DNA of 64,000 nt, from positions 1-64,000 of the forward strand of contig NZ_CP053838.1 in NCBI RefSeq assembly GCF_013201705.1, in the 5' to 3' direction. Made by a program: the position numbers and the translations under genes. Source of the DNA: Aliarcobacter faecis. GTDB lineage: Bacteria > Campylobacterota > Campylobacteria > Campylobacterales > Arcobacteraceae. Shown here in pieces: positions 15,151 through 37,838 of the stretch; the stretch's first letter is position 1; every line of letters starts with the position of its first letter. The notes beneath the pieces are model-generated. The model saw only the letters and a program-made list of their open reading frames with translations. It did no database searches and was not told the origin of the DNA.

Positions 15151-15153
15151 TTG

Positions 15154-16095: not shown

Positions 16096-16115
16096 TTATA
16101 ATCCTTTAATATTAA

Positions 16116-16130: not shown

Positions 16131-16160
16131 CTATGAAATAATACATTAATTTAATTAAAT

Positions 16161-16175: not shown

Positions 16176-16251
16176 AATTTATTTTAAAGCTTATAAAATA
16201 CAGATATTTATATTCTAATTTATACAATTTTTCATAATTTAAAGGTTCATA

Positions 16252-19308: not shown

Positions 19309-19357
19309 AAGAGATAGAAGAGCCATTTTATAGAGATTTACTTATTATATTAAGCTA

Positions 19358-19403
19358 TTTTTAAATATTGTTGGAAAAAAAATCCCTTTGTAGGTCTATA
19401 CCC
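19358..19403 (-). repeat. Right terminal inverted repeat of the Tn3-family element
   Basis: The reverse complement starts GGGTATAGACCTACAAAGGG and matches the left repeat in 45 of 46 bases. It lies 49 bases after the transposase stop. Confidence 0.95.
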
Positions 19404-19503
19404 AATTTAAAAAAAAGCAGATTGACTTAACAAAAAATTGCTTAAGATAGGAGCTTAATCTATCATCACTAAATAAAAAAAATTTCATACAAAGGAGAAA
19501 GAA

Positions 19504-20546: not shown

Positions 20547-20659
20547 AACCAACTTTTTATTTTAAAAGCTTACTTTTTTATTCCATAACCCCTAAAGGTT
20601 TATGGAACTTTGCATTTTTTACTTTTTGAACACTTTATGGAACAAGAAATACTAATATA

Positions 20660-20712
20660 AGTGCTTAGTGTTCTAAAACTAGAAGAACTCGCTCAGCACT
20701 GATTTGTTAATA
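20660..20712 (-). other. attC-like site 1 (left end of array)
   Basis: A hairpin, AGTGCTTAGTGTTCT against AGAACTCGCTCAGCACT, followed by GTTAATA at 20706-20712, overlaps the end of the first cassette gene. The outer RYYYAAC box is not clear, so the site is degenerate; it marks the left end of the array. Confidence 0.5.
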
Positions 20713-21082
20713 CTTCTTTGTATTCACATGTTCTGATTCGTCTATCAATCTCGCGTTCTGCCGCACCAATAGCATAACTTTTATTTCCACCTGTTACACT
20801 CGAAACAACTTGTGAATTACAGTTTTCACAAATAAAATCCGTTTTCTTGACATTAGCATATATACTACGGCAAGAGCTGTCATCATAAACTAAGGTAGCA
20901 TCACAACTTGGGCAATAACACCAAAGTTTAGTTATAGTATTTCCTGCCCAATGCCATCGCCATTTTGCACCGAATAAAAGATCTTCTGTATATGCTTTGA
21001 ATTCGGGACTTTTTTTTTCTTTGATTATTAAAAAAATGACCACTATCGCAAATAATGTAAATAAAGAAATAATTAACAACAC
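20693..21082 (-). CDS. Membrane-anchored zinc-ribbon protein (cassette)
   Basis: From the first ATG the product is 129 residues: one membrane span (2-22), then a zinc ribbon made of CYCPSC and, after about 30 residues, ICENC. The stop lies inside the attC-like site, as in other cassettes here. Odd point: the same frame is open upstream to 21279 and codes convincingly hydrophobic protein (SSYKTIRNGAIASTIAG, then REYAIIFFSWIWSGLVWCW) but contains no ATG, GTG or TTG. An AAAAAAGG stands about seven bases before an ATC at 21259. So the real protein may start there with a non-standard codon and have two or three membrane spans, or its start codon was lost. Function unknown. Confidence 0.65.
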   Translation of the reverse strand: MLLIISLFTLFAIVVIFLIIKEKKSPEFKAYTEDLLFGAKWRWHWAGNTITKLWCYCPSCDATLVYDDSSCRSIYANVKKTDFICENCNSQVVSSVTGGNKSYAIGAAEREIDRRIRTCEYKEVLTNQC

Positions 21083-21275
21083 CCATCCCGGTAGGCTATA
21101 TGAAACAAAGAGAGCTTTCCAACACCAAACTAAGCCAGACCATATCCATGAAAAAAAGATAATTGCATACTCACGTAATTTTGGAATAACTAAAATGATG
21201 ATGCCAGCAATGGTTGATGCAATTGCTCCATTTCTAATTGTTTTATAAGAACTTTCGATTGTAATTCCTTTTTTG

Positions 21276-21408
21276 CATTAACGGTTGACTTGAAGGACAA
21301 GTGAACTAACGACTTGACACTTTAGTCTTTTAATTTTATCTAATCGAAACTTATAAGCTTGATTTATCAGCAGTTTTCACTTGTTCTTCTTCCAAGGATT
21401 TGTTAGAC
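21276..21408 (-). other. attC-like site 2
   Basis: CATTAAC (21276) and GTTAGAC (21402) bracket complementary blocks GAAGGACAAGTGAAC and GTTTTCACTTGTTCTTC. The GTTAGAC box fits the GTTRRRY consensus. It lies downstream of the DUF2971 gene that stops at 21480. Confidence 0.75.
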
Positions 21409-21479
21409 TTTCAAGTCTATTTAAAACATATAAGTTTTTTATTTCTTTATCATTAATTATGATAGTTATTCAACATATA

Positions 21480-22265
21480 TTATTTCCATTTAGTTATTCT
21501 ATTAAGATTAAGTTCATTAAAATATTTATTGTGATTTTTGGGATGATAATCAATAATATCTAATTTAAACTGATGCGAATGAATAAATGATTCTTTAACA
21601 CTTATACCAAATTTTTGACATTTATTAAAGATTTCATCTTTTTCAGACTTCTCCATTTGACAACCTAATATAATAGATTTAATAATACTAGGTTCTAGCT
21701 CAAAGAAATACATTGATTTATCACTATCATATTTAGCCATATCTAGTGAAATTAATATACGTTGTTCCTCTTCATATTCCCATTCAGGAGATTTTACAAA
21801 CCAAGAACTGGTATTATTCTCAAGTTCTTGTGGTTCAATATAAGAAGGTCGTTCTAGCTGATAACTTACCTTTTTTAAAATACCAATATCCTCGTAATAA
21901 TCATCTTTAAATTTTCCATTAAAATGATTTGCACTTGAATCAAACTCAATACATATTCCAGAATGATTATTAGCATAATGAGCCCACATTAATAAATTAT
22001 CATATTTTGTTGTAAAACAAACAACACCTGTACTTGCTCTAACACCACATTGAGCATCAAAATAGGCATCAATATAAGAAGCACCATCTTGTAAATTATT
22101 TGAACATGATATTATTTCCTCAACTTCTTCTTCTGGTATAGATGTTAAATAATTACCCATAACCATCTCAAAGGGATCATTAAATTCACCAAAACAAGAT
22201 AATTTTAAATAAAAATTATCAAAAAAATCAGAACGGTAAGTTGTATATTTATAAATGGAATTCAA
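21480..22265 (-). CDS. DUF2971 protein (cassette)
   Basis: A 261-residue DUF2971 protein. Family marks are the N-terminal YKYTTYRSDFFDNFYLKLS, FNDPFEM (about 29-35), LMWAHYANNHSGICIEFD (about 92-109) and the EWEYEEEQRIL segment near 160. DUF2971 proteins are common in defence islands and near phage genes; their biochemistry is, to my knowledge, unsettled. It starts at TTG after AAAGGAT. It is a single-gene cassette with an attC-like site on each side. Two more DUF2971 genes follow the same plan in this array but are not close copies. Confidence 0.85.
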   Translation of the reverse strand: MNSIYKYTTYRSDFFDNFYLKLSCFGEFNDPFEMVMGNYLTSIPEEEVEEIISCSNNLQDGASYIDAYFDAQCGVRASTGVVCFTTKYDNLLMWAHYANNHSGICIEFDSSANHFNGKFKDDYYEDIGILKKVSYQLERPSYIEPQELENNTSSWFVKSPEWEYEEEQRILISLDMAKYDSDKSMYFFELEPSIIKSIILGCQMEKSEKDEIFNKCQKFGISVKESFIHSHQFKLDIIDYHPKNHNKYFNELNLNRITKWK

Positions 22266-22280
22266 TATTTTATCCTTTTA

Positions 22281-22409
22281 GTCTAAGACCGAACTGAAAA
22301 ACAAGGGATTTCAAGCTCTTCGCTAACTTCTATTTATTATCTCTAAATGATACTTAGCAGATATTAAAAAACCCGCTTATCACTTGTTTTTTCCTATGTT
22401 TTGTTAGAT
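22281..22409 (-). other. attC-like site 3
   Basis: GTTAGAT at 22403-22409 (GTTRRRY) pairs with a degenerate GTCTAAG box at 22281. Complementary blocks GAAAAACAAG and CTTGTTTTTTC form the stem over a long loop. It follows the stop of the next DUF2971 gene. Confidence 0.6.
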
Positions 22410-22410
22410 A

Positions 22411-23163
22411 TTACTCCATGTCAATAGGTGCTAAATTAAATTTATATAAGTCTGACTGAAATATTGGTAACTTACTTATCTTTTCAATTTGTATTTTATA
22501 TTTATTATATTCTTCATCATTTAATCTTGGGTCTAAACATAAATCATCAATTAAAGTTGATGGATTTATATTTATCTTAAATAATCCTTTGTTTTTGACA
22601 ACTTCTTCTTCATTATTTTCATTAACTAATATTCTTATTTCATTTTCATGACTAAATGCTTCTCTTTTAATACATAGAAGTTTTGCAAAACCATCATTTT
22701 GGCCACCTATTGCAATTGACCAAAAACTATTTTCATTTCCAAAGTTATTCAATTCATTAAGCGTTTTATATTCAACTTCTCCAATAAAATATTTTAGTGG
22801 AGCATATTTATCACTGCTATCATAAATTGCATCAAATAATTTTCTTATTGTTGTTGAAATTCTGATACCATCTTTATTATGACTATATATTCTACACATA
22901 GCATCTGTATCTTCATTTTTAGTCCAACATTGTCCATACCACATTTCTCTTAGGTTTGAAAAATCAACATTATTTCCATTATTATCTACAGCATTCCCTT
23001 TTAAGAAAAAATTTTCAAATGGGTCATCCCATTTTTCAGGATTAACTAATACTAACTCTCTATTTTTAATTAATTCTTTAAATCTAGTTATTGAAATTAT
23101 TCTATATATTTTTTGGTCTAAATCTGAAATATTTAAAATATTACTTTCTTTTTGTGTTTTCAT
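22411..23163 (-). CDS. DUF2971-type protein (cassette)
   Basis: A 250-residue protein with the DUF2971 pattern: YRIISITRFKELIKNRELVL at the start, KWDDPFENFFLKG (about 46-58), then QCWTKNEDTDAMCRIYSHNKD (about 82-102) in place of the WAHY motif, and HENEIRILVNE near the end. The Trp-Ala-His-Tyr core is replaced by MCRIYSH, so it belongs to a different branch from the neighbour. Start ATG after AAAGGATT. The stop is 2 bases from an attC-like site, and a second one precedes the gene, making it a one-gene cassette. Function unknown, defence suspected from family context. Confidence 0.8.
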   Translation of the reverse strand: MKTQKESNILNISDLDQKIYRIISITRFKELIKNRELVLVNPEKWDDPFENFFLKGNAVDNNGNNVDFSNLREMWYGQCWTKNEDTDAMCRIYSHNKDGIRISTTIRKLFDAIYDSSDKYAPLKYFIGEVEYKTLNELNNFGNENSFWSIAIGGQNDGFAKLLCIKREAFSHENEIRILVNENNEEEVVKNKGLFKININPSTLIDDLCLDPRLNDEEYNKYKIQIEKISKLPIFQSDLYKFNLAPIDME

Positions 23164-23174
23164 TATAATCCTTT

Positions 23175-23243
23175 ATCTAACGTCAGTGCTGAGAAATATT
23201 TGAGCCGAAGGGTCAAATATTTCTCTCCAATGGTTTGTTAGCA
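23175..23243 (-). other. attC-like site 4
   Basis: ATCTAAC (23175-23181, a perfect RYYYAAC) and GTTAGCA (23237-23243) surround the stem GAGAAATATTTGA / TCAAATATTTCTC with a 9-base loop. Almost the same stem is used at 25146 and 30034, showing a shared attC family. Confidence 0.88.
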
Positions 23244-24007
23244 TTTTTAACTCGATATTCTTTATCTTCTACTTTAAAAATAACTTCATCACAGGCATTT
23301 GCAATAGCTATTCCTAAATCATATGGTTCTTGTTTATCCTCTGGCAAAAAAGATCCATATACATCTATTCCACCATAAAATCTCATATGAACAAGGTATG
23401 TTCCATAGTTGTCGGGATTTGAAAATTGATAATAAAAAACATCCTCGTTTGCTCCATATTTAGGAATATCTTTTAAATCTATTTTCGCTTGATGTTTAAT
23501 AAATTGTACAAAGTTATTATTACTTTTATCTTCACTATGAAGATAACCAAGAAGAACTTTAATTTTACCCTTAAAACATTTTTTTAAATGATGATAATGA
23601 AGTCCATAGGCTATGTGCTCAAAACAGCTTATTAGTCTTGTATGGTCTGGGGTTCCCCAGATTACTTCAAGAAAACCATTGTCACTTTTTAGGTGGTAAT
23701 GTTTTCTTTTTGTAAATGCTTTATCTAACAATCGATTTGAAGTTCTTCTAATAGCACGATTTACTTTTGTAAATTTATGCAAATATCCAATTGAATTATT
23801 ACCAAATATTCCTGCTAAGCTAACCATTAAAAATTCATCATCTTTACTTTTATGATTGTTGTGTATTTCACAACTTGGTACAGTTATAAGATATTGTCTA
23901 TAATCTTTTCCAACATCTTTCTGTTCTGGAAATAAATTTTTTGGTGGTACATGTTCACTAGAAACAGCATTTCTATCGCACATATAACATTTAAATATAT
24001 TTTGCAA
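23213..24007 (-). CDS. HNH-type endonuclease-like protein (cassette)
   Basis: A 264-residue protein whose N-terminus reads IFKCYMCDRNAVSSEHVPPK, then PSCEIHNNHKSKDDEF. It has CxxC, EHVPPK and CEIHNNHKS in the order of an HNH/treble-clef nuclease (zinc Cys, catalytic His, third His). The remaining 200 residues have no domain I can name. It starts at TTG after AGGATAAA. The last codons lie inside the attC-like site, so the stop is supplied by the recombination site itself. A nuclease in a mobile cassette suggests defence, but a DNA target cannot be read from the sequence. Confidence 0.7.
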   Translation of the reverse strand: MQNIFKCYMCDRNAVSSEHVPPKNLFPEQKDVGKDYRQYLITVPSCEIHNNHKSKDDEFLMVSLAGIFGNNSIGYLHKFTKVNRAIRRTSNRLLDKAFTKRKHYHLKSDNGFLEVIWGTPDHTRLISCFEHIAYGLHYHHLKKCFKGKIKVLLGYLHSEDKSNNNFVQFIKHQAKIDLKDIPKYGANEDVFYYQFSNPDNYGTYLVHMRFYGGIDVYGSFLPEDKQEPYDLGIAIANACDEVIFKVEDKEYRVKNANKPLERNI

Positions 24008-24030
24008 ATTTATCCTACCTTATTGTGTAA

Positions 24031-24140
24031 TGCTAACGTCAGTGCTGAGCGACACTCAGAGATAAGTATAAGAAAGCGGAGCTTTCGATATGCTTATTGA
24101 AGGAGTGGAAGAGAGTCTTCGCTCCTGCGACTTGTTATCC
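24031..24140 (-). other. attC-like site 5
   Basis: TGCTAAC (24031) and GTTATCC (24134) flank a longer imperfect hairpin of about 95 bases containing paired blocks around AAAGCGGAGCTTT. It lies just upstream of the HNH cassette gene. Confidence 0.75.
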
Positions 24141-24156
24141 GGAGCCGGAGGCGAGC

Positions 24157-24211
24157 CGATAACGTTTAACTTAACCGACAATTTATTGTTCGATTCGAGG
24201 CTTTGTTAATT
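24157..24211 (-). other. attC-like site 6 (of a gene-less cassette)
   Basis: CGATAAC (24157) and GTTAATT (24205) flank a short hairpin (CGACAATTTATTGTTCG). Only 16 bases separate it from site 5. It closes a cassette that contains the leader repeat at 24223-24435 and no gene. Confidence 0.7.
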
Positions 24212-24222
24212 TTGTAACATGG

Positions 24223-24435
24223 CTATTTATAGACATGCATTATATACAAGATAGCCTAAAAATAAATAACATATATAAAAATATTAGGAATTACAATAGA
24301 TAAAAACTGATACAAATATGAGTTTATAAAACGAGTTCAACAAACTGTACCTTTAGGAGTATGTTCTAAAATTCAACTCTATTTGGAACAGTCTTTCTGT
24401 TACTAGAACCTGTTCCAAAAGTAAGAGGTTTTGCA
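24223..24435 (-). repeat. Leader repeat copy A, forming a gene-less promoter cassette
   Basis: Shortened copy of the leader repeat. It runs from the attC box at 24436, through TTTTGGAACAGG, the inverted TCCAAATAG block and the GTACAGTTTGTTGAAC block, to CTTGTATATAATGCATG. Its TATAAT (24244 to 24239, minus strand) is the best promoter -10 box in the region. No gene follows before the next attC-like site, so this looks like a mobile promoter able to drive cassettes inserted after it. Confidence 0.7.
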
Positions 24436-24505
24436 ACTTAACGTTTGTCGTGAGCAATAATTTTCCCGCTAGGGTAAATTATTGGTCTCCTCGTAGTTGT
24501 TAGGT
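24436..24505 (-). other. attC-like site 7
   Basis: ACTTAAC (24436) and GTTAGGT (24499-24505, a perfect GTTRRRY) flank the stem GAGCAATAATTT / AAATTATTGGTCTC. It overlaps the stop of the membrane coiled-coil gene. Confidence 0.88.
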
Positions 24506-25129
24506 ATAAATTTTGTCAAATTCATTTTTTAAATTATTTTGCATTTTTCCTGCTAATGAAGAAATCTCATGGACAGCTTTATGCACTTCTCCTAAATTAC
24601 TTTGAGCTGCATCACTTGATGGATCTTGACTTAAGTATTGTTGTTGATAACCCCAAAACATATTCGCTTTTCCGTTAATATTATCTATATCATCTTTTAA
24701 GCTTGGAAAATATAATCTAACACTTGTTTGAATTTGATTTATTTTTTCTACTATTTCATTTGTATAATATGCATCAAACTTTTCAAGGTCTTTTAATCTA
24801 GTTAAAATAAAACTTGATGTTGGTGAACATTGAAATTTCAACTTTGATAATAAATAATAAGTTTTTTCAAGGTGTTCTGTTTTTTTATTGTTGAAACTAT
24901 CAATTTTATTTTGCTGAATAGACTCTTGACGCTCTTTATATTCGATATAAAACTGCTTTTTTTGATGTTCTAAGTTTTTGTCTAATAAGATTATTTGTTG
25001 TTTAAAGCTTCTACTTGCAACAGTAATACTAATTACAGCAGCGATTGTTGCCCCAAATATTGCTGCAAGAACAGTTGCAAAACCTTTATCAAGTGATAAG
25101 CTTGATAATAATAAATTTAATTCTTCCAT
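24500..25129 (-). CDS. Membrane-anchored coiled-coil protein (cassette)
   Basis: A 209-residue protein with one membrane span at about 17-38 (FATVLAAIFGATIAAVISIT) and a long helical, probably coiled-coil region from 42 to about 100 (FKQQIILLDKNLEHQKKQFY, ERQESIQQNKIDSF). The C-terminal half is also helical. There is no catalytic motif. Proteins of this build are frequent in cassette arrays and annotated as hypothetical; they could be sensors or membrane effectors. Strong ribosome site AAAGGAG, attC-like sites at both ends. Confidence 0.7.
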   Translation of the reverse strand: MEELNLLLSSLSLDKGFATVLAAIFGATIAAVISITVASRSFKQQIILLDKNLEHQKKQFYIEYKERQESIQQNKIDSFNNKKTEHLEKTYYLLSKLKFQCSPTSSFILTRLKDLEKFDAYYTNEIVEKINQIQTSVRLYFPSLKDDIDNINGKANMFWGYQQQYLSQDPSSDAAQSNLGEVHKAVHEISSLAGKMQNNLKNEFDKIYT

Positions 25130-25145
25130 ATATGTTCTCCTTTAT

Positions 25146-25214
25146 ATCTAACGTTTGAGTTGAGAAATATTTGAGACGCAGGGGCAAATATTTCTCTCCA
25201 ATGATTTGTTATCC
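25146..25214 (-). other. attC-like site 8
   Basis: ATCTAAC (25146) and GTTATCC (25208) around the stem GAGAAATATTTGA / GCAAATATTTCTC, nearly the same as sites 4 and 10. Confidence 0.88.
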
Positions 25215-25222
25215 TTGCTTGT

Positions 25223-25843
25223 TTAATATTCTAAATATGCTTCTATCTCATCTTTTGTGATAAAGGCATTTTTTAATCCAATTCCCTCTAAAAAAACAAT
25301 CATTGCAGTTTTTAATAAAGTTTTATTACCTTTTAATGTATCCAAAATTAGTTCATCACTAAAGTTAGATTCAATTGATGCATCTGATTCACCAAAATTT
25401 CTAGCAATTTGATTTGCTCCAGTATGAGTATAATCATTCATGATTTTATAGGCATTTTGTTTTACATTTGAATAAAAGTTAGTTTCTAATTTTTCATCTA
25501 TTTTTGTTGCCATATCTCCAATACTTGGAAAATGTTTATCCCAACTATTCGCATCATAAATTGTTACTATTTTCGGATCATCCATAATGTAATACATATA
25601 CTTTAGTTTTATAATATTTTCAAAAAAGATTCTTTCTAATGCAAAAGCAGAATTATATAATTTCTTTTCCATTAAATAATTGATTGATATAAAATGACTT
25701 AATACATTTCTTGAAAATCCTGCTAATAGCATGTCTCTTTTATTATCACTAATAATATCAACTTTTATCATTAATTTTTCAATTTTTTTTACTAGCTCAA
25801 TATCATCAATAAGATATTTTTTTATTTCATCTTTTAAACTCAT
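25223..25843 (-). CDS. DUF5677/DUF6988-like helical protein (cassette)
   Basis: A 206-residue helical protein. The pattern RDMLLAGFSRNVLSHFISIN then YNSAFALERIFFENIIKLKY and NDYTHTGANQIARNF resembles the DUF5677/DUF6988 families, which are distant HEPN-like all-alpha proteins. The conserved Arg/Glu of the second helix and the YTH motif of the third are visible. Some of these families occur in toxin or defence settings, but no activity is established here. It starts at ATG after GAGGAAC; the attC-like sites lie 9 bases after the stop and about 20 bases before the start. Confidence 0.65.
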   Translation of the reverse strand: MSLKDEIKKYLIDDIELVKKIEKLMIKVDIISDNKRDMLLAGFSRNVLSHFISINYLMEKKLYNSAFALERIFFENIIKLKYMYYIMDDPKIVTIYDANSWDKHFPSIGDMATKIDEKLETNFYSNVKQNAYKIMNDYTHTGANQIARNFGESDASIESNFSDELILDTLKGNKTLLKTAMIVFLEGIGLKNAFITKDEIEAYLEY

Positions 25844-25865
25844 ATGTTCCTCTCGTATTTATTTT

Positions 25866-25921
25866 GGATAACGTTTTACCTTAGTGATGCTGTAGCATTC
25901 ACTACAGAGATTTATTATGTA
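25866..25921 (-). other. attC-like site 9 (degenerate)
   Basis: GGATAAC (25866) and a GTT-less TTATGTA box near 25915 flank the stem CTTAGTGATGCTG / TAGCATTCACTACAG. Placed exactly at the boundary between two cassettes and overlapping the end of the DUF262 operon. Confidence 0.6.
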
Positions 25922-25922
25922 T

Positions 25923-27905
25923 TTACTTTACCAAATAACATCCATCTATATCTCTTGGTCTCATACTTTTTAGTAAATAACAACAAGCCTCATCTTCTGG
26001 TATTGCTATATGATTTGATTTACACATCTCATTTAACAAACTAGGTTCTTTAATTAGTCTAATTTTCCAATTTGGCATATCATTAGGTGGAGTAAAATTA
26101 GTCACAATTTCCTGTAAATTGTTATTCATTAATTTTAAAATTAGTTTTTTTATGTATATTTTATATTCTTCACTAAATCTACCATAAATATAAAACTCTA
26201 AGGAACGAAGATAGCTATCAATTAAAGACCTTTTATTAGCATTCACTACATTCCAAAATGACCACCAATATTTATAATAGTGATAGTTTCCATCGTTATC
26301 AGCAATAGTAAGTAATGCTCTTCTTAAATCATTATTGATATCTTTATCATCTTTAAAATAAGTGCTAATTACATTTTTAACTGATTCAAGCCTTTTTATA
26401 TCTAATGCCATTCCAGCTTCATAATCGATGCAGTATAAAGCAAATGAAATTTTTCCTTGTAGAAGATCTGTATCTTCTGTATTGAAAATAACACTTTTAT
26501 TATCAGGATTAGCGACTATTAATTTTGCTTTTAATTTTTCCTCTTCTATTTGTTCTTTTGCAAATGAGGACTTTATTTGATTAGAAGATAAGTAGGTATA
26601 AATATCTTCACAACCTGATGATAATTCATAAATTAAGTTAATAACTCCATAAAATTGACCAGGATCACGAATGATTGTGGGTCTATTTCCAGTTTTTTCA
26701 ACATCACCTCTTGCAACTATATTTCTTACTACTCTCATCCAATCTTGAAACTTCTCTTGATTAAATTCGGATACTTTTATTAAGTATTCAGTTTGAGCAT
26801 AAAACAATACTTTTAAAGAATAAGAAGCATTCTGTCCTTCAAAAACTATTCCTGAAAATATATTCTCAGCTGGTGCATGTTGAAATAATGGAAAATTATG
26901 CTTAACATTTAAGTTCTCATCAAAAACTTTACAATATGTATCAAAACATTCTGTTAAATAAATGAAGTCGTTTTCATCAAACATATTTGTTCTAACCATA
27001 TCTGGTTTATCTTGCAATTCTTTTATTATTTGTAATCTATTATCTGTTTTATTTATCGATTGTCTGCACATAGCAATAGTAGAAATAAATCTGTTAAATG
27101 CTTCATCTATTTTATTTTCTTTTCTATGTATCCAAAATAAATCTGTCCATTTTGTATCAATTTTAAATGCAAAAGTATCCTGAAATTCTTTCTCTTTATC
27201 CCATTTATTATCATTTATGCGTTTTTGAAAACTTGCTTTAAAGTTTTCGAAAGATGACAGAAGTTTTCCTCTTGCATTCATCTTTATATATAAGTCATCT
27301 GTTAAACCTATATCTTCCAATTCAATATGATAAAAGCTTATTAAATTTGCATCCGAAGTCAATTTTTCCCATAGATTTTCTATATCAAAAAAGTATTTAT
27401 GAATATCATTTAGAGTTCTTAACATGGCATCAATTGTAGGGTCTTTCTTCCAAGATAAGAAGAACCAAGCTGAATCTACTATTTGAGAACTTAAAACTAT
27501 TGTTTTGGTGATTTGAATAGGATTAAGAACTAAAGTATTACAAAATTCTCTTGAACTTATTCTTGTTTCATAAGTAAACTTCTTCAACACATTCATAATA
27601 TCTTTATTAAGTAATTGACTTTTTACTGCTGCATACCAGTGTAATAAAAATAATGTAGTTAACCGTTGTTGACCATCTAAAGGTTGAGAATCACCATCCT
27701 CGACACTTCCATAAATAAAATCTAGTTTAATAGGAGTATCTGTATTGATACTTTGAAACAATGCATTTAAAAAGTTATCTCTAATTTCCTCTTTATCCTT
27801 TCTTCCTTGTGCATAATCTCTTTGAATAATCGGTATTACTATGTTATGTTCTTTTAGAAGTTCCCAAAAGTTTGTAATCTTTCCTTGATATTGTACATCA
27901 CTCAT
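25923..27905 (-). CDS. DUF262 protein, second of a pair (cassette)
   Basis: A 660-residue protein with an N-terminal DUF262 (ParB/GmrS-like) domain: IPIIQRDYAQGRKD (about 24-37) and PLDGQQRLTTLFLLHWY (about 75-91), the DGQQR motif being the nucleotide-binding/cleaving centre. The long helical C-terminal region has no HNH motif. Its start overlaps the stop of the preceding DUF262 gene by one base, so the two are made together. DUF262 pairs of this sort resemble the modification-dependent GmrSD restriction enzymes and their relatives. Here the nuclease half is probably supplied by the partner. Confidence 0.85.
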   Translation of the reverse strand: MSDVQYQGKITNFWELLKEHNIVIPIIQRDYAQGRKDKEEIRDNFLNALFQSINTDTPIKLDFIYGSVEDGDSQPLDGQQRLTTLFLLHWYAAVKSQLLNKDIMNVLKKFTYETRISSREFCNTLVLNPIQITKTIVLSSQIVDSAWFFLSWKKDPTIDAMLRTLNDIHKYFFDIENLWEKLTSDANLISFYHIELEDIGLTDDLYIKMNARGKLLSSFENFKASFQKRINDNKWDKEKEFQDTFAFKIDTKWTDLFWIHRKENKIDEAFNRFISTIAMCRQSINKTDNRLQIIKELQDKPDMVRTNMFDENDFIYLTECFDTYCKVFDENLNVKHNFPLFQHAPAENIFSGIVFEGQNASYSLKVLFYAQTEYLIKVSEFNQEKFQDWMRVVRNIVARGDVEKTGNRPTIIRDPGQFYGVINLIYELSSGCEDIYTYLSSNQIKSSFAKEQIEEEKLKAKLIVANPDNKSVIFNTEDTDLLQGKISFALYCIDYEAGMALDIKRLESVKNVISTYFKDDKDINNDLRRALLTIADNDGNYHYYKYWWSFWNVVNANKRSLIDSYLRSLEFYIYGRFSEEYKIYIKKLILKLMNNNLQEIVTNFTPPNDMPNWKIRLIKEPSLLNEMCKSNHIAIPEDEACCYLLKSMRPRDIDGCYLVK

Positions 27906-29572: not shown

Positions 29573-29591
29573 AAAGTTATTTCCTTTTTTG

Positions 29592-30033
29592 ATATTTCAA
29601 TCTATACATAACTATTTATTGAACATACATTATATACAAGATAGCCTGAAAATGAACAAGCAACATACACAATATGTGTCGTATATCAAAATGCCTACAA
29701 ACACCTTAAATAAACTATTTTTGTAGATGTTACTATAAAAAATATTGGAAATTGAGATGCTTCTTAAATAAATTTTAAGTTTATAATATGCTTTTTATGT
29801 ATGTTTAATGTGGATATTTAGACGATAATAGTACATAATATATGTATATAAAAGTGACATCGTAATAAATCTGCATATATTATGAGGAGTAATGTGGACA
29901 GAAAATTGCTACAAAGATAAGTTATAAAACAAGTTCAACAACCTTTACCTTATTAAACATCCTCCAAATCTCAATTATTTTTGGCCCAAGCTTTTCCTTA
30001 GCAAAAACTGCTCCAAAAGTAAGAAGTTTAGCA
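29592..30033 (-). repeat. Leader repeat copy B (promoter of the DUF262 operon)
   Basis: The longest copy. Read on the minus strand it runs from the attC box at 30034 through GTTGAACTTGTTTTATAAC and TTTATTTAAGAAG to CTTGTATATAATGTATG and ATAAATAGTTATG, ending just before the DUF262 start. The TATAAT at 29634-29629 would start transcripts about 50 bases upstream of the ATG. It shares most of its length with copy C. A stretch near 29780-29890 is unique to this copy. Confidence 0.75.
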
Positions 30034-30103
30034 ACTTAACGGTTGAGTTGGGAAATATTTGAGCCGCGAGGGTCAAATATTTTTCTCCAATGATTTGTAA
30101 TAA
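30034..30103 (-). other. attC-like site 10
   Basis: ACTTAAC (30034) and a degenerate GTAATAA (30097) flank the stem GGAAATATTTGA / TCAAATATTTTTC, the same stem family as sites 4 and 8. It overlaps the end of the McrA-like gene. Confidence 0.75.
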
Positions 30104-30834
30104 GTTGTCTGCTTAATCTTGTCATGAATTTCTTCAATACCGTATGCAGGTTTTCTTTTATGTAACATTGCATGACAATTTGGACAAACAGGTCTTAAAT
30201 CTTCAATTGGGTTTATTTTATATTTGGCATCTATTTCGGATAATGGTTTTATGTGATGAACATGAATAAAATTGTGTCCAATTTCTCCATAAATATTTTC
30301 AAAATCAAAATTACAAATTACACATTTGTAACCATATTCATTAATACATTCTTGTCTTGCTTGTGAACTTCGCTCATAAGCATTAACTGTAATTTGTTTT
30401 TTTGTACCTTCAAATAAGTCATTATCTTCAATTTCATCAGGATAGATTATATCTGATTTTAAAACTCTCTCTAGTTCATTTTGTTTTTCTACATTGTCAA
30501 TATAAGTAGTTCTTGTACTTACTATTTTAGTATTTAATTGAATGTTTGAGTTGATAACTTCCACATTATTAAGCTTATGTCCATAAATAAACTTTTCATG
30601 TCTATTATTATCATGTTTTATTTCTCCTAGAAATTTAGCTTTCGCAACTATATAGCCATCATAAGCAAAATATATTTTATTTCCTTTTTGGAGCTTATTT
30701 TCATTCATTCTTTTTGTATGAAAAAAATAATTTTCATCTCTCGTTGGTAAAATTTTATTAAAGAAATTTTTAGTTTTCACTTCATTCTCAAAACCTTCTA
30801 CTTTATCTTTACTTAACCTAAAGAGTAAATCCAT
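30073..30834 (-). CDS. HNH endonuclease, McrA-like (cassette)
   Basis: A 253-residue protein. The C-terminal HNH domain (about 165-235) is complete: YKCVICNFDFENIYG, FIHVHHIKPLSEID, then DLRPVCPNCHAMLHKRKP, giving two zinc CxxC pairs, the catalytic HHI and the Asn/His end. The N-terminal 110 residues (KIYFAYDGYIVAKAKFLGE) look like a PUA/EVE-like beta domain that could read modified bases. That layout is typical of McrA-type modification-dependent restriction. Its position in a cassette beside a GmrSD-like pair makes a restriction role likely. Start after AAAGGATT. Confidence 0.82.
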   Translation of the reverse strand: MDLLFRLSKDKVEGFENEVKTKNFFNKILPTRDENYFFHTKRMNENKLQKGNKIYFAYDGYIVAKAKFLGEIKHDNNRHEKFIYGHKLNNVEVINSNIQLNTKIVSTRTTYIDNVEKQNELERVLKSDIIYPDEIEDNDLFEGTKKQITVNAYERSSQARQECINEYGYKCVICNFDFENIYGEIGHNFIHVHHIKPLSEIDAKYKINPIEDLRPVCPNCHAMLHKRKPAYGIEEIHDKIKQTTYYKSLEKNI

Positions 30835-30849
30835 TTGTAATCCTTTGAC

Positions 30850-30905
30850 TTATAACATTTGACTTCACCGACAGTTTACCTGTTCGGTGCTAGGTTTTGT
30901 TATTT
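30850..30905 (-). other. attC-like site 11
   Basis: TTATAAC (30850) and GTTATTT (30899) flank TTCACCGACAG / CTGTTCGGTGCT, a near-perfect stem. It is closely similar to site 13 (36113), including TTTGACTT and GCTAGGTTTTGTT. Confidence 0.85.
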
Positions 30906-30922
30906 GTTTAATTTAAATCTTT

Positions 30923-32269
30923 TTAGTATTTTTTCCTATTATTTTTTAAATCATTAAGTAAAGTTTCTAATTGATTAATTTGCATTGTTAAATTTAATTC
31001 TGATTCAATATTTTCTTCACTATTTGGAGGATACGGTGTACCTTCTATATTAAATTGCTCTAATATCAAAAGGTAATCATCATCATTAAGATTAAGTAAA
31101 TTGTTTCCATTATTATCACTCAATCGTTCTTTATATTTCGAAATAAAAAATGACCGACAATGAGGGCATGTAAATACTCTTTCCATATTTATATCTTTAT
31201 GTTCTTCTTGTTGGGTTATTTTCATTAAAGATATATTTGGATGATATAATGTTTTATACAAAACAACAGGTTCTTTAGTGCAATTAGGACAAACATATGT
31301 TGATATATAGAAATTAGACATTTTCTTAGTATAAAATGTTTGCATTCTATTTAAAGCTTCTGATTCGTCATGTGTTTGTATCAGATGAAATTTAAATTGA
31401 TTATGTTCAAGATTAAATTTAATATGAGATGATACATAATTTTTTTTAGAAAGATTATAATGTGATAGATAGATAGCTTCCCAAACATAAATGATAAAAT
31501 TTCTAAAAAATCTAAGTTCTATTTCAGTAATAATAAATAAATCATTTTCTATAAAATTGTCAGTTCGTAATATATTATAGTTGTTAGGAAAAAGATTTCT
31601 TTCAATAAACTCAAAATTTCTATTTATCATATCAGTTATTTTATTTTTAATTTTATCCATTTCTTTTATAAAATCATTATCAATTACTCCACTTGAATGT
31701 GTATATAAGTTTCTTATGAATGTGAAATATTTCCATATCACCGTAAAATCATTTTGTGTAAAGTTTTTATATAAATCATTAAATTTACTAATAAATTTAT
31801 GATTTATACTGCAAACTTCGTCTAAAAGTTTTTTTTGAAAAACTCTCTCATCTGCATTTTTCCCTTGTGTAATTAAATAGCTTTTTATCGTATTCTCAAA
31901 GGATGAATATAAAGTAATGAGTTGTTGAATATTTGTAATATAGTTAATAAACTCTTCATAATTTCCATCAAAATATTTTCTTCTTAAATATAAATCATCA
32001 TTTAAAATAGATATATTATATTCTTCTCTTTCAGTTTTTTCTCTCTTAAGTCCCATTGCTGGTAAAATTGAGTCAATTTCTTGAAGTTTATGGTTTATAG
32101 ATTCTTTTATTTCTAAGCTCATTACAGGTAACTGTGACTTTACTTCATTAAATAAGTGATTTGCAAGTAAATTTTGTTTTATATTTAGGCTATAAAACAT
32201 ATAAAAAAGTTCATAGTTTGGACAAGTTCCTTTTTCTGGTACTATCATGCCATAAGTTTCAAATAACAC
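30923..32269 (-). CDS. HEPN-like protein with C-terminal zinc ribbons (cassette)
   Basis: A 448-residue protein not assignable to a named family. The middle is helical and contains FTFIRNLYTHSSGVID, an R-x4-H motif (Arg186, His191) in the setting expected for HEPN or MAE_28990-like proteins. The C-terminal third has CPNC (about 336) and CPHC (about 374), making a split zinc ribbon that could bind nucleic acid. The tail is an acidic coiled-coil (MQINQLETLLNDLKNN). It starts at GTG after AGGAG, 46 bases from the TATAAT of leader copy C. HEPN-fold RNases are common toxins and anti-phage effectors, but this reading rests on a short motif. Confidence 0.6.
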   Translation of the reverse strand: MLFETYGMIVPEKGTCPNYELFYMFYSLNIKQNLLANHLFNEVKSQLPVMSLEIKESINHKLQEIDSILPAMGLKREKTEREEYNISILNDDLYLRRKYFDGNYEEFINYITNIQQLITLYSSFENTIKSYLITQGKNADERVFQKKLLDEVCSINHKFISKFNDLYKNFTQNDFTVIWKYFTFIRNLYTHSSGVIDNDFIKEMDKIKNKITDMINRNFEFIERNLFPNNYNILRTDNFIENDLFIITEIELRFFRNFIIYVWEAIYLSHYNLSKKNYVSSHIKFNLEHNQFKFHLIQTHDESEALNRMQTFYTKKMSNFYISTYVCPNCTKEPVVLYKTLYHPNISLMKITQQEEHKDINMERVFTCPHCRSFFISKYKERLSDNNGNNLLNLNDDDYLLILEQFNIEGTPYPPNSEENIESELNLTMQINQLETLLNDLKNNRKKY

Positions 32270-32283
32270 TATTAACTCCTATT

Positions 32284-32625
32284 TATATTTCATACAACTA
32301 TTTATTGAATATACATTATATATAAAACACTCTAAAAATCAACAAACAACATACACAATATGTGTCGTATATCAAAATGCCTGCAAACACCTTAAATAAG
32401 GTATTTTTGTAGATGTCACTATAAAAAACATTAGAAATTGAGATACTTCTTAAATAAATTTTAAGTTTATGACATTATATTTAATGTGGACAGAAAATTG
32501 TTACAAAGATAAGTTATAAAACAAGTTCAACAACCTGTACTTATTGAACATGCTCCAAATTTCAATTCTTTTTGGAACAATCTACTTTTTAGTAAAAACT
32601 GCTCCAAAAGTAAGAGGTTGAGAAA
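32284..32625 (-). repeat. Leader repeat copy C (promoter of the HEPN-like gene)
   Basis: Nearly collinear with copy B, minus its unique block: ACACAATATGTGTCGTATATC, TTTTTGTAGATGT and the GTTCAACAACCTGTAC block occur in the same order. The TATAAT box is at 32320-32315. It does not end in an attC-like box: the homologous position continues AGAGGTTGAGAAATAGCC, so the boundary with the next unit was lost or recombined. The rest of the gap to 32808 shows nothing I can identify. Confidence 0.7.
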
Positions 32626-32808
32626 TAGCCCATTCATAAGTTTTCCTATTCTTTATCTCAATAAATACAGTTATATCTTTTATGATATCGTTATGTCATC
32701 ATAATTTTTATATCTTTTTTATTTGAAAAAAATTTTTATAATTTTGTTTTTACCACAAGCTGTTCTATATATTGAACTGTTAACTCAAAAGAAAATAAAA
32801 CCACATAT

Positions 32809-33675
32809 TTATATCTCAAAAAAATTTAATTCATATCTTTTATCATGTATAGAGGATTTATATAGTTTAATATGTTTTAAATCTTCTCTTTCTTTTAATT
32901 CAATTAACTTATTTATATCTTCATCCTTCATCCTACATCCTAAATAGACACTTTTTATTGCATCAGGACTAACTTTAAACATAAACATAGTGTTTGGATT
33001 ATTGAGGAAGGAAGTATTATAGGAATTTCTTATTTCAAAAAAATTTTCATTAATTTTTTCCAATTCCTCTTTATATGAAGAAAAAACACATTCATCTTCA
33101 AATTTTTTATCACAATAATCTTTATGAATTAGAATTTTATCACTATTTGAAAGTTTTAATAACATTCTATATTCTTGTTCATATATCCAATCTGATGACT
33201 TATGAAAATATGGTTCCAATAAATAGTCAGATGAAATTAATCTTTCTTTTCTATACAATACTTTTTGAGGATTACCTAGATAATTATGTTCCTTTTCTAT
33301 AAATTTTTTGGAAAAAAATGGATGTGCTAAATCAAATTCAATTACTATTCCAGTGTGATTATTAGAATAATGGCTCCACATTAATATATTATCTTTTGTC
33401 TCTGTAAAACTAATTATGCCATGATCTTTAAATAAATCAGTACCTAAATGTCTCCATGGAGAATTTAAATTCTGCATTCTTATATATGAAAAAATTTCTT
33501 CTTTTGTTTGACCAAATCTATAATGCTTTAATTCTAAAAATAAATTTGCCCACCATTCTATTGATGGTTCCATTTCAAAAGGGTCATTTAATGTATTTAT
33601 GTGCGAAGCTCTTAGTAAAAAGTTTTCAAAAAAAATTTCTCTAAAAGGCATAAATTTATATAACGACTTAACCAT
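32809..33675 (-). CDS. DUF2971 protein, partner of a PD-(D/E)XK gene
   Basis: A 288-residue DUF2971 protein: LYKFMPFREIFFENFLLRAS at the start, TLNDPFEMEPSIEWW (about 28-42), ILMWSHYSNNHTGIVIEFD (about 96-114), SSDWIYEQEYRMLLKLS (about 157-173) and IKSVYLGCRMK near the end. This is the canonical motif order of the family. It begins 2 bases after the stop of the nuclease-like gene and has no separate promoter, so they form a two-gene operon. The pairing suggests that the nuclease is controlled by, or works with, the DUF2971 protein. Confidence 0.83.
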   Translation of the reverse strand: MVKSLYKFMPFREIFFENFLLRASHINTLNDPFEMEPSIEWWANLFLELKHYRFGQTKEEIFSYIRMQNLNSPWRHLGTDLFKDHGIISFTETKDNILMWSHYSNNHTGIVIEFDLAHPFFSKKFIEKEHNYLGNPQKVLYRKERLISSDYLLEPYFHKSSDWIYEQEYRMLLKLSNSDKILIHKDYCDKKFEDECVFSSYKEELEKINENFFEIRNSYNTSFLNNPNTMFMFKVSPDAIKSVYLGCRMKDEDINKLIELKEREDLKHIKLYKSSIHDKRYELNFFEI

Positions 33676-33677
33676 AA

Positions 33678-34862
33678 TTATTGTTTCTCTAAAAAATGTT
33701 TTAATTTTTTCATTATTAAGTTCTCCGAAAGATTTTCTTTATAAGTAAAGTATATTAAGGTTACTTTATTTTGCTTACATCTTAACTTTTTGATTTTATC
33801 TCTTTCTTGGGCTTTTTTTAATCCTTCAACTCCTCCAAATAATGGAACTGCTTTAAAATGCTGTGCACCTTGATATTCAACTGCAAGATTTAATTCAGGA
33901 ATAAATATATCAAGCCTTTGTCTATCTAACCATTGAGGTGAAGCTTCTCTAATTACATTATATTCAGGAAATATCATATCAATATAATTAAATAAAAGTG
34001 TTTCATTTATCCATCTTTCACCAATTTTTGCAATATTCTTAATTACTCTGATTTCATTTTCTGCATCTCTTTCAGTAATTTCTTTTTCAATTTCTAATTT
34101 TTTTATATATGCACCATATCTTACTTTTACTTCTGAACCATACATTTTAGAACAGTACATCAAGTCAGAGTTTTTATTAGTACAAATATGACAAATAGAT
34201 TCTTTAAAGCTATTATTTTCAAGTGCTTTTTCAATGTGTTGATGGGTATTAGATAGCTGTGAGTCTTTTTTTGATTTTTCAATAGCTTTCTTAAAACAAT
34301 TACAAAAATATGTTTCCCCTGTAATCTTATTATAAAATGTTTGTCTCCATTCCCATACTCCTGAATGAGATGGTAGTAATATTTCTTCATTAAATTTTGT
34401 CAAAGAATTGAATATTTCAGATAATATTTTTTTATCAAATATTAATCCAAGTATCTCAATATCTATCTTGTTTTTTGTTTTTAGATTTGCTTTTTTTACT
34501 TTTATATATTTAATTACATCATATCCATAATCAACAGGTTGCTGCTTTATAAAAGATGGAAGTTTTAATTCATCAACATTTATAATTTCCTCTTTTGCAC
34601 TATAAATAGTAAAGTTATTATAATGTAGTGTTAAAGAATTCTTGTCTATGTAATCTTGTAAAGATAAAAATTTGTCATAGTAGTTATTATTGTATTTATG
34701 TTTAATTTCTTGTATGTTGTTATTAATGGAGAAAGATGGAGTAATAAATGAGATAAAACTATAATATATATCATCAGCGATTGTATTTGTTGATAAATTA
34801 ATATTTTTGCAACATTCGAATATAAACTCTTCTTTTGTAAAATTAAATTCTAATACATTCAT
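33678..34862 (-). CDS. PD-(D/E)XK-like nuclease with N-terminal unknown domain
   Basis: A 394-residue protein. The C-terminal 120 residues contain QWLDRQRLDIFIPELNLAVE then YQGAQHFKAV, with the Asp, Glu-x-Gln and a following conserved Lys stretch (KKAQERDKIKKLRC) of a Vsr/DUF559-like PD-(D/E)XK nuclease. Around 205-255 lie three short Cys motifs (YFCNCF, ICHIC, MYCSK) that probably bind zinc. The N-terminal 190 residues are not recognised. It is the first gene of an operon with the DUF2971 gene. AAAAGGCATAAAGTA precedes the ATG. A DNA-cutting effector is a fair inference; the target is unknown. Confidence 0.72.
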   Translation of the reverse strand: MNVLEFNFTKEEFIFECCKNINLSTNTIADDIYYSFISFITPSFSINNNIQEIKHKYNNNYYDKFLSLQDYIDKNSLTLHYNNFTIYSAKEEIINVDELKLPSFIKQQPVDYGYDVIKYIKVKKANLKTKNKIDIEILGLIFDKKILSEIFNSLTKFNEEILLPSHSGVWEWRQTFYNKITGETYFCNCFKKAIEKSKKDSQLSNTHQHIEKALENNSFKESICHICTNKNSDLMYCSKMYGSEVKVRYGAYIKKLEIEKEITERDAENEIRVIKNIAKIGERWINETLLFNYIDMIFPEYNVIREASPQWLDRQRLDIFIPELNLAVEYQGAQHFKAVPLFGGVEGLKKAQERDKIKKLRCKQNKVTLIYFTYKENLSENLIMKKLKHFLEKQ

Positions 34863-35018
34863 TACTTTATGCCTTTTATTATATGAAAAATATTAACAAA
34901 AAAAAGTAATATTTTTAATTAGAATGTTCTATAACCTGTTCTATTAGGGAAATAATCACTACTTTACAATCCTTTCAATATATGAGATAAATAGTAAATT
35001 CAAAACAAAGGATTTATT

Positions 35019-35582
35019 ATGAATGTAGGTTATGCAAGAGTTTCAACTTCAAGCCAAAATCTTGAGAATCAAATTGATCAACTCAAGAGTGCTGGTTGTA
35101 AAAAGATTTTCTCAGAAAAAAAGTCAGGGAAGAATGAGTCAAATCGGGAACAGTTTAAGATAATGATGGACTTTGTAAGAGAAGGTGATGTACTTTATAT
35201 TACAAAACTTGATAGATTAGCAAGGTCTGTAATAGATCTTCATAATATTGCAAAATTTTTAGAAAACAAAGATGTAAATTTAAAAGTATTACATCAAAAT
35301 ATTGATACTACATCTCCAGCAGGTAGACTATTATTTACAATGTTAGGTGCTATTGCAGAATTTGAACGTGATTTAATAAATGAACGTGTTAGAGAAGGAA
35401 TTGAAGCTGCAAAGAAAAAAGGTGTTCAGTTTGGTAGAAGAGCTATTCTAAGTACTAAAGAGAAGAATGTTATATACAAACAACACGAAAAAGGAAAGTC
35501 TGTTGCATTTTTATCCAAGATTTTTCATGTAGCACGTAATACTATCTATAGGGCAATTAAAGACATAGCTAAAAAGAAGTAG
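35019..35582 (+). CDS. Serine recombinase (resolvase/invertase)
   Basis: A 187-residue small serine recombinase with catalytic Ser9 in VGYARVS, KLDRLARSVIDL, TTSPAGRLLFTMLGAIAEFER and an HTH tail (KSVAFLSKIFHVARNTIYRA). It is different from the Tn3 resolvase at the left. It is the only plus-strand gene within the cassette array, so it was inserted, or it belongs to a small element of its own. No companion transposase or inverted repeats could be found. Ends in a perfect palindrome that is probably its terminator, followed at once by leader copy D. AAAGGATTTATT precedes the ATG. Confidence 0.9.
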   Translation: MNVGYARVSTSSQNLENQIDQLKSAGCKKIFSEKKSGKNESNREQFKIMMDFVREGDVLYITKLDRLARSVIDLHNIAKFLENKDVNLKVLHQNIDTTSPAGRLLFTMLGAIAEFERDLINERVREGIEAAKKKGVQFGRRAILSTKEKNVIYKQHEKGKSVAFLSKIFHVARNTIYRAIKDIAKKK

Positions 35583-35598
35583 TCAAGTTGACTACTTC
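35576..35598 (+). terminator. Palindrome at the end of the serine recombinase gene
   Basis: Perfect 11-bp inverted repeat around one base (GAAGTAGTCAA ... TTGACTACTTC) overlapping the TAG stop. The lack of a loop means it could equally be a recombinase or regulator binding site; a T-run is not obvious. Confidence 0.5.
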
Positions 35599-35599
35599 A

Positions 35600-35676
35600 A
35601 GATGTTCAACAATTCAACTCTTTTTGGAACAGACTATTTTTCAGTAAAAACTGTTCCAAAAGTAAGAGGTTTAGCA
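35600..35676 (-). repeat. Leader repeat copy D (partial)
   Basis: Only the attC-proximal part of the leader is here: CTCTTACTTTTGGAACAG, the inverted TGTTCCAAAAAG and GTTGAATTGTTGAAC. The TATAAT half is missing and is replaced by the serine recombinase gene, so that gene appears to have replaced or split the leader. Confidence 0.65.
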
Positions 35677-35748
35677 ACTTAACGTTTAAAATGACCAATC
35701 AAAAATCCGCTCGCGGGTTTTTGATTGGTCTCCTTTTGATTGTTATAC
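35677..35748 (-). other. attC-like site 12
   Basis: ACTTAAC (35677) and GTTATAC (35742) flank the strong stem GACCAATCAAAAATCCG / CGGGTTTTTGATTGGTC. The repeat-protein gene stops inside it. Confidence 0.9.
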
Positions 35749-36081
35749 AATCTTCTTGATGAGGAAATGGTAAGTAGCGACAATTTCTGGATCTAACTCA
35801 CGTTCCATGCCCTTGATTGTGAAATCGCTAATTTTTCCGATAGTTTTGCCTGCTCCAAGGGAAGAACCATCACGAACTGTGTCACCTTTGACATTCAATA
35901 TAGCTTTTCCTGCTCCTTTAGATGATCCATCACGGATGATACCATCCTTTATATTTCCCAAAGAGCTTCCTGCTCCTTTAGATGATCCATTTCGAATGAT
36001 TCCATCTTTGATATTTCCAAGTGCTTGACCACTACCAAGCGAATTTCCATCTCTTATAACACCATCTTTAAAATTTGCCAT
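35743..36081 (-). CDS. Protein built of 20-residue tandem repeats (cassette)
   Basis: A 112-residue protein with four near-perfect 20-residue repeats (residues 4-83), each reading like IKDGIIRDGSSKGAGSALGN, then ISDFTIKG and a 22-residue tail. The regular Gly, Ile and Ser spacing predicts a closed or stacked beta-structure. Such small repeat proteins are often annotated as hypothetical in bacteria; no function is known to me. Excellent AGGAG site before the ATG, the stop inside attC-like site 12, and site 13 upstream define a one-gene cassette. The repeats could change number by recombination. Confidence 0.75.
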   Translation of the reverse strand: MANFKDGVIRDGNSLGSGQALGNIKDGIIRNGSSKGAGSSLGNIKDGIIRDGSSKGAGKAILNVKGDTVRDGSSLGAGKTIGKISDFTIKGMERELDPEIVATYHFLIKKIV

Positions 36082-36112
36082 TTTGTCTCCTGTTCTTATG
36101 TTTGGGTTCGAG

Positions 36113-36169
36113 CTACAACGTTTGACTTTACTGATAGATTTATCTATTCAGTGCTAGGTTTTGTTGTAT
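36113..36169 (-). other. attC-like site 13 (right end of array)
   Basis: CTACAAC (36113) and GTTGTAT (36163) flank ACTGATAGAT / ATCTATTCAGT. Sister of site 11. It lies immediately after the Detocs operon, which is the last unit of the array that has an attC-like site. Confidence 0.82.
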
Positions 36170-37836: not shown

Positions 37837-37838
37837 AA

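Follow-up and report, generated by a model that had tools for sequence, protein, structure and literature searches.

Integron cassettes in an Aliarcobacter genome read as several consecutive units with attI-like leaders and no integrase gene

The first 64 kb of plasmid contig C2 (140,289 bp) of Aliarcobacter faecis, referred to here as the window, carries an array of genuine integron attC sites and cassettes (array 1) without an integron integrase gene (intI). An initial annotation of this DNA had proposed a single array; we read it instead as several consecutive integron units, four with an attI-like leader and none with intI. That genuine integron cassettes lie here in consecutive intI-free units which have moved as blocks is our best explanation, with a probability of about 0.8. 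The genome comprises two contigs, the chromosome measuring 2.31 Mb. Site and gene coordinates are window positions, those preceded by "C2:" are contig positions, and L and G numbers label compared loci and genomes. The genome samples comprised 31 genomes of the genus (this one included), 104 of the family and 397 of the phylum; judging from sequence, the host and the family and phylum searched appear to be Aliarcobacter/Arcobacter, Arcobacteraceae and Campylobacterota. Two sister plasmids from chicken-meat Arcobacter sp., CP134847.1 and CP129951.1, are treated as one case because they are near twins; further plasmid matches to the region come from Aliarcobacter cryaerophilus and A. butzleri.

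attC sites of array 1

Thirteen attC-like sites span 20664-36170, every one on the minus strand like the genes. Twelve resemble attC in gene orientation and the thirteenth, S1, is half a site. Their general form on the minus strand, 5' to 3', is TAACAAA, a stem and TCAAACGTTA, which is looser than the RYYYAAC and GTTRRRY boxes of the initial annotation: among the 12 tabulated sites (S1 left out) GTT is kept in 11 and AAC in 10, and both boxes are exact in S6 (24436-24506) only. The long form (about 70 nt) comprises S4, S6, S7, S9 and S12, together with T1 of a second array described below (array 2), and the short form (about 56 nt) S5b, S8, S10 and S13, together with T2 of array 2; S2, S3 and S5a are long-stemmed. 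Stem families shared by differing genes, as first noted, were recovered as S4/S7/S9/T1 and S10/S13. Bit scores in the list refer to the covariance models R1 and R2 introduced beneath it.

20664-20714, minus: S1, half attC joined to the array end, GTATTAACAAATCAGTGCTGAGCGAG half only; identity with the sister plasmid starts inside it, at 20683
21275-21411, minus: S2, long stem; R1 29.9 bits, E 0.0087, outside training
22283-22410, minus: S3, R' box decayed (GTC); R1 19.8 bits on 22351-22412
23174-23246, minus: S4; R1 84.3 bits (training)
24031-24141, minus: S5a, long stem; by inspection and fold
24157-24212, minus: S5b, short type; R2 73.4 bits (training)
24435-24508, minus: S6, both boxes exact; R1 82.4 bits (training)
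25145-25217, minus: S7; R1 87.1 bits (training)
25866-25921, minus: S8, R'' AAT; R2 66.2 bits (training)
30033-30106, minus: S9, R'' TAC; R1 86.1 bits (training)
30850-30906, minus: S10, short type; R2 73.6 bits (training)
35676-35751, minus: S12; R1 82.3 bits (training); same site 82.3 bits in the sister plasmid (L151)
36113-36170, minus: S13, short type; R2 71.4 bits (training); same site also in L151

Strict box searching plus folding recovered just part of these sites, and an Rfam scan of the window gave no family at the gathering threshold. Model R1 was trained on the five long sites of the window (S4, S6, S7, S9, S12) and R2 on five short ones (S10, S13, S5b, S8 and T2). Whole-genome scans, in which the best 150 of 860 (R1) and 150 of 581 (R2) first-look candidates were scored, showed both models to be specific. 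At E≤5 R1 returned ten matches, namely its five training sites, four opposite-strand images of these and one new site (C2:123182-123253, 66.7 bits, E 1.6e-10), with no match on the chromosome among the candidates scored, and at E≤1 R2 returned its five training sites and nothing else. Outside training, S3 matched R1 at E 0.15, and S2 scored as listed with default filters and 13.3 bits, on part of the site, with filters off. With these two models array 1 holds at least two attC sites in a row. Sites matching R1 at E≤0.001 occur in 8 of the 31 genus genomes. When the family genomes were searched with window positions 20700-24030 (two first-look candidates scored per genome, two own-genome rows left out), 72 of the 131 matches listed, in 43 genomes, were confined to attC (46 to S4, 24 to S2 and 2 to S3, sites that make up 10.2% of the query); the same attC thus stands beside different genes in other genomes.

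Integron integrases in relatives

The strongest evidence for attC identity comes from true integron integrase (IntI) genes in relatives. IntI exceeds the TIGR02249 cut-off in 34 of the 397 phylum genomes, among them five other genera of the same family. Nine IntI loci were compared, seven with intI over the cut-off (one, G243, with internal stops) and two with broken intI. R1 at E≤0.001 matches attC in L116, L117, L118, L119, L120 and L124, with top scores of 84.6 bits beside an intact intI (L118) and 85.9 bits beside a broken one (L124); the strong matches in L116-L120 lie on the strand opposite intI, as expected for cassettes. R2 gave 66.9 bits in L123, L121 has just a weak match and L122 none. 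The first cassette beside IntI in L116 (15058-15378) resembles, by eye, a small multidrug-type transporter gene.

It had been suggested that hairpins of this kind could belong to an array with a distant integrase. The best TIGR02249 score in the whole genome is 81.9 bits against a cut-off of 265, which excludes such an integrase in the same genome at that cut-off and upholds the other suggestion, cassettes resembling a cluster of attC sites without integrase (CALIN). None of the 31 genus genomes has IntI above the cut-off either. A plasmid search with the L117 IntI (E≤1e-90) found an IntI-like gene in one record, from a cyanobacterium, and in no Campylobacterota. The hairpins are stem-loops at or past stop codons, as terminators or dispersed palindromes would be, a reading to which we give practically no credence: the boxes are conserved while the stems vary, the strand is correct, like sites lie next to true IntI genes and attC-confined homology joins different genes.

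A repeated element with attI-like leaders

A noncoding element of up to 438 nt, termed A-B, repeats between cassettes at 24.2, 29.6, 32.3, 35.6 (partial) and 41.3-42.2 kb.

24217-24439, minus: copy 1, made up of sequence A, core and leader B; not separated from S5b by any gene; leader terminus AAATAG|CC instead of G|TT
29600-30037, minus: copy 2, the query copy; A, core (29930-29948), intI start remnant, leader/attI; aligned with IntI-bearing relatives
32296-32625, minus: copy 3, 88-89% to copy 2; upstream side without attC; leader partly deleted
35614-35680, minus: copy 4, A part only, 81%; a resolvase gene replaces the remainder
41260-42162, minus: copy 5, interrupted by other sequence and an open reading frame, which separate leader B (41260-41309) from the core and a portion of A (42110-42162)
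29603-29659, minus: attI/promoter-like leader, TATATAATGTATGTTCAATAAATAG|TT; similar copies ending G|TT at 32292-32345 and 41255-41309

Copies 1, 2 and 4 begin directly after an attC, with sequence A first in the direction of the genes. Homology between the leaders at 29.6, 32.3, 41.3 and 122.3 kb stops at AAATAG|TT, after a TATAAT motif, and three of the four leader copies in the window end at G|TT, as an attI site. The leader matches attI and the stretch upstream of intI in IntI-bearing relatives (L117, 31/31 nt; L120, 83% over 241 nt), and it is on this match and the first intI codons kept in copy 2 that array 1 is read as consecutive integron units. Alignment A6 spans the intI start codon to attI; about six intI codons seem, as read off the alignment, to be left before the core in copy 2, L069 and L150, and a remnant of the intI start lies by the core in copies 2 and 3, L069, L077 and L150. 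Each A-B copy may be read as the scar of a lost intI, lying where one unit finishes and ahead of the attI of the following unit, a reading that for copies 1, 4 and 5 would be an extension from the others. Every piece of a full unit is visible in copy 2 only, the other copies being partial. At E≤0.001 the element has matches in 21 of the 31 genus genomes, and in 18 at E≤1e-10. No phage record matched copy 3.

Leader motifs were found in 26 stretches of named genomes, 25 titled Campylobacterota and one a Clostridia assembly. Two records titled Helicobacter pylori PMSS1 MAG (L141, L145) both contain the leader motif and R1 attC matches; a wrong record name or a mixed assembly may explain this. 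At L084 (9101-20000) an attI leader is inserted in a pyrC copy and followed by genes resembling a BREX operon.

Block differences at a 19-nt core

Plasmids differ here in whole blocks, and the inner breakpoints fall in a short sequence, the core.

32522-32540, minus: 19-nt core, GTACAGGTTGTTGAACTTG; others at 24332-24350, 29930-29948 and 42123-42141; decayed (5 mismatches) at 34923-34941

Among alignments longer than 60 nt, those to the sister plasmid cover 32523-42147 (piecewise, at 99.6-99.9%) and 20179-20683 (99.0%); in place of the 11.8 kb that separates them here (20683-32523), the sister plasmid has 7.4 kb carrying other genes. The window thus shares the 9.6-kb block between two cores with the sister plasmids, and the neighbours of the block on both sides differ. 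Both inner breakpoints lie within core GTACAGGTTGTTGAACTTG: at 32540, in copy 3, the plasmids agree upstream and diverge downstream, and at the second, 42141 in copy 5, the reverse applies. The outer break of the differing 11.8-kb block is the array end (20683). The boundaries do move between relatives; between the sister plasmids it is a whole block that changes, broken at the core and at the array end, and not single cassettes cut at G|TT.

Counting duplicates, the loci (1.18 Mb) contain 52 instances of the core at no more than 3 mismatches; the left flanks are many, of few recurrent types, and there are several right flanks. In three further locus pairs one flank is shared and the other replaced, the switch lying at the core. 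Homology ends were counted from matches of ≥90% identity and ≥480 nt between different loci, ends ≤30 nt from a locus end being dropped and the duplicates L126, L128, L129, L134, L142, L146 and L152, as well as L096-L115, left out; of the 141 ends, 25 are no more than 30 nt from a core, where 2.2 would be expected, but the ends are not independent, many having the resolvase unit in common. A 27-nt version of the core has 22 sites in 14 of the 104 family genomes and none for a reversed-pattern control. In the six IntI-bearing loci L116-L121 the best match to the core is 13-14 of 19 nt.

Neither of two possible sources of the core was upheld: Tn3 terminal repeats were rejected because the 54-nt ends of the window's Tn3 element (8161-19403) differ from it, and chromosomal dif, beside an xerH-like gene that presumably encodes XerH, gave no good match. 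Ten stretches of viral contigs (L165-L174) contain an exact match to the 19-nt core, which could be chance or carried units.

A serine resolvase beside the core

35019-35582, plus: serine resolvase gene, gamma-delta/Tn3 type; PF00239 E 7.2e-47, PDB 2gm4 E 2.7e-33

The resolvase, which also matches PDB 5cy1, starts 78 nt from the decayed core (34923-34941). These 78 nt are conserved in eight loci (nine with a twin), and conservation falls off at the position of the core, which is intact or nearly so in four of the eight, broken in three and decayed in the window. From this constant spacing a gamma-delta-type resolvase is a candidate for the block exchange, with the core as its putative res crossover site; the same arrangement can be read as homologous recombination or as a transposon end instead. 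Resolvase and core co-occur in 8 of the 104 family genomes (14 with the core, 17 with the resolvase; Fisher p 1.7e-4, kinship uncorrected). The window resembles gamma-delta/Tn3 resolvase and res in the resolvase sequence and in the spacing of a crossover-like core from the start codon, and it differs in that no transposase is seen beside its resolvase.

It is unlikely that the core is instead the terminal repeat of a transposon family carrying attI-cassette units, the varied left flanks being its targets. The sequences right of the core are indeed partly similar, left flanks include unrelated genes, L084 has its insertion inside the pyrC copy, and in three loci homology upstream of the resolvase stops in half a core. 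However, neither an inverted partner copy nor a target duplication was found, no remainder of pyrC turned up in the 20-kb locus L084, the array 1 cores with ≤2 mismatches all point in one direction, and the left flanks, as noted, are of few types.

Weighing the explanations

A full unit would run from a core through a remnant of the first intI codons, a leader (TATAAT) with attI (G|TT) and one or more cassettes with attC to sequence A and the next core. The cassettes would have been gathered by IntI in an ancestor or another host, with intI lost later; each leader would drive the first genes of its unit, and recombination at the core would now shift units as blocks, through either a gamma-delta-type resolvase, for which the core would be the crossover part of res, or homologous recombination between repeats. 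A bolder proposal, which we advance only tentatively, is a two-tier system in which cassettes sit in intI-free units with their own attI and promoter, a resolvase swaps whole units at the core, and the units form a dispersed family of Aliarcobacter mobile elements that spreads phage-defence blocks without an integron integrase.

A number of observations weigh against the account of consecutive intI-free units. S5a matches neither R1 nor R2 and rests on inspection, and comparison with the sister plasmids revealed no single cassette gained or lost at G|TT. Copies 1, 4 and 5 of the A-B element have no intI start remnant, the leader of copy 1 ends in CC as listed, the 21 genus matches to the element include weak ones that cover just 30-50 nt, and the TATAAT motif within the conserved leader is the sole basis for calling it a promoter. 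Of the homology ends, 116 of 141 are not near a core; two other locus alignments have ends away from it, with the opposite end of the G007/G020 block and the G007/L079 end some 80 nt or more distant. Nine of the 17 resolvase genomes have no 27-nt core pattern, and at three of the eight resolvase loci the homology upstream of the gene stops within a broken core. Breaks at the core would, moreover, be favoured under homologous recombination too, since it is the best conserved stretch between A elements.

Decayed boxes in S1, S3, S8 and S9 weigh on the same side, and they would suit an ordinary CALIN, the decaying remnant of a chromosomal-type integron whose repeats recombine by host homologous recombination and in which the resolvase is an unrelated insertion. 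We consider this conceivable and a matter for some doubt. Such recombination could act on the A-B repeats, which range from tens to over 400 nt at 63-89% identity, and resolvase and core are not always together; but in all five junction pairs inspected the switch lies within the 19-nt core, and core-flanked sequence stands beside unrelated left flanks, for example inside the L084 pyrC copy, where repeat homology is not apparent.

Cassette genes

20693-21082, minus: last cassette gene, 129 aa, stop inside S1; no family match
21480-22265 and 22411-23163, minus: two DUF2971 cassette genes, both PDC-S31 (PADLOC E 4.5e-33, 9.2e-87)
23213-24007, minus: cassette gene, 264 aa, stop inside S4; no family match
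24500-25129, minus: cassette gene, 209 aa, stop inside S6; no family match
25223-25843, minus: cassette gene, DUF6988/DUF5677; PDC-S52 match
25923-29572, minus: two GmrSD_N genes after the 29.6-kb leader, closed by S8 (PF03235 E 7.8e-31, 1.4e-18)
30073-30834, minus: cassette gene, HNH endonuclease domain, stop inside S9 (PF01844 E 3.3e-7)
30923-32269, minus: 448-aa gene after the 32.3-kb leader; no family above its cut-off
32809-34862, minus: two genes, one of 394 aa without Pfam match, one for a DUF2971 protein with a PDC-S31 match
35743-36081, minus: cassette gene, 6-fold beta-flower protein (PF21786 E 1.1e-9)
36170-41237, minus: three-gene operon after the 41.3-kb leader, closed by S13; candidate defence system PDC-M60A/B/C (PADLOC E 2.5e-78, 8.8e-36, 9e-119)

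Eight of the 17 array 1 proteins match PADLOC candidate defence families at E≤1e-10, namely three PDC-S31, one PDC-S52, PDC-M60A, B and C, and the 555-aa GmrSD_N protein (27905-29572), whose best match covers about 110 residues; the second GmrSD_N gene and the HNH gene have Pfam support. These families are defence candidates by name. With matches to candidate phage-defence families in about half of its genes, the array probably serves as an exchangeable defence island.

Array end, second array and neighbouring elements

20571-20688, minus: conserved array-end sequence (A-end, no core); nhmmer profile 107.5 bits (one of 4 seeds)

The array-end sequence also lies directly after an attC at C2:126382-126497, in L082 and in the IntI-bearing L116, with more matches in L069, L081, L070, L079, L073, L090 and L086. 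Array 2, at C2 about 122.3-126.4 kb, is small and has a leader, cassettes, T2 and the new R1 site. Differing types of tyrosine recombinase adjoin the same array-end sequence (C2:126376-127560, L073:16174-17519, window 19504-20688); many TTCCATAA repeats occur in this sequence, possibly a recombinase site. It is very improbable that the role of cassette integrase has passed from IntI to another tyrosine recombinase, for example that of the broken gene at 19504-20545 or of C2:126532-127560: such genes adjoin the array-end sequence in both arrays of the contig, and matches to the window's gene do so in L069, L081 and L082, yet they lie at the distal end and not by attI, the window copy is split in two frames, and the place is held by different types.

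A Tn3-family transposon at 8161-19403, with 54-nt ends 96% identical, contains a resolvase (8450-9061), TnpA (16252-19308; PF01526, 419 bits) and cargo named by eye as PyrC-like, QueD-like and zinc-type ABC transporter genes. It is absent from this place in the sister plasmid and is flanked by pieces of tyrosine recombinase genes (7956-8160 and 19404-20545), of which the 19404-20195 part has a relative at C2:105243-106033 (88%). Near-identical direct repeats (99.7-99.9%) with a spacing of 228 nt occur at C2:79684-80709.

Discussion

Class 1 integrons on Tn402-like transposons target res sites, and the units described here likewise lie next to resolvase-related sites; they differ in that no transposition genes of that type were identified with them. 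The chromosomal-type integrons of Arcobacteraceae (L116-L120) resemble the window in leader/attI region, attC family and cassette orientation, and L116 also in the sequence that ends the array after attC, whereas the window lacks intI and repeats its attI-like leader four times with cassettes between. CALINs are described, after Cury et al., as attC clusters without an integron integrase (PMC8618304); the window is alike in having more than two attC and no IntI and differs in keeping several attI-like leaders that delimit units, attI being unmentioned in the passage concerned of that source. In attI-type cassettes of mobile integrons an attI-like sequence lies in the array, flanking cassettes, and IntI1 recombines such structures (PMC12901181). 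As described there these are single resistance cassettes with truncated attI, while the window element, of up to 0.4 kb, combines post-attC sequence, core, intI remnant and attI and recurs across the genus.

The initial annotation regarded cassette arrays as rarely discussed for Campylobacterota, which does not agree with the listing of the phylum among those with integrons (PMC8618304) or with a table that records a CALIN in a Sulfurovum and In0 plus CALIN in Sulfurimonas autotrophica (PMC10295459). Its family assignment is right in kind; what is new is the tandem integrase-less units, the repeated attI-like leaders and the core. No description of repeated attI units in Arcobacteraceae was found in the open-licence literature, a weak negative.

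CALINs are usually taken as leftovers of lost integrons, and here integrase-less arrays keep several attI-like leaders. Related elements recur in a genus in which no IntI exceeded the cut-off, and a defined short sequence marks the points where plasmids come to differ in blocks. This would give integrons a second route of reshuffling, and would suggest how cassettes could stay expressed, from a leader of their own, and mobile after the loss of intI. The array is also a clear case in Campylobacterota of integron cassettes stocked with candidate defence genes.

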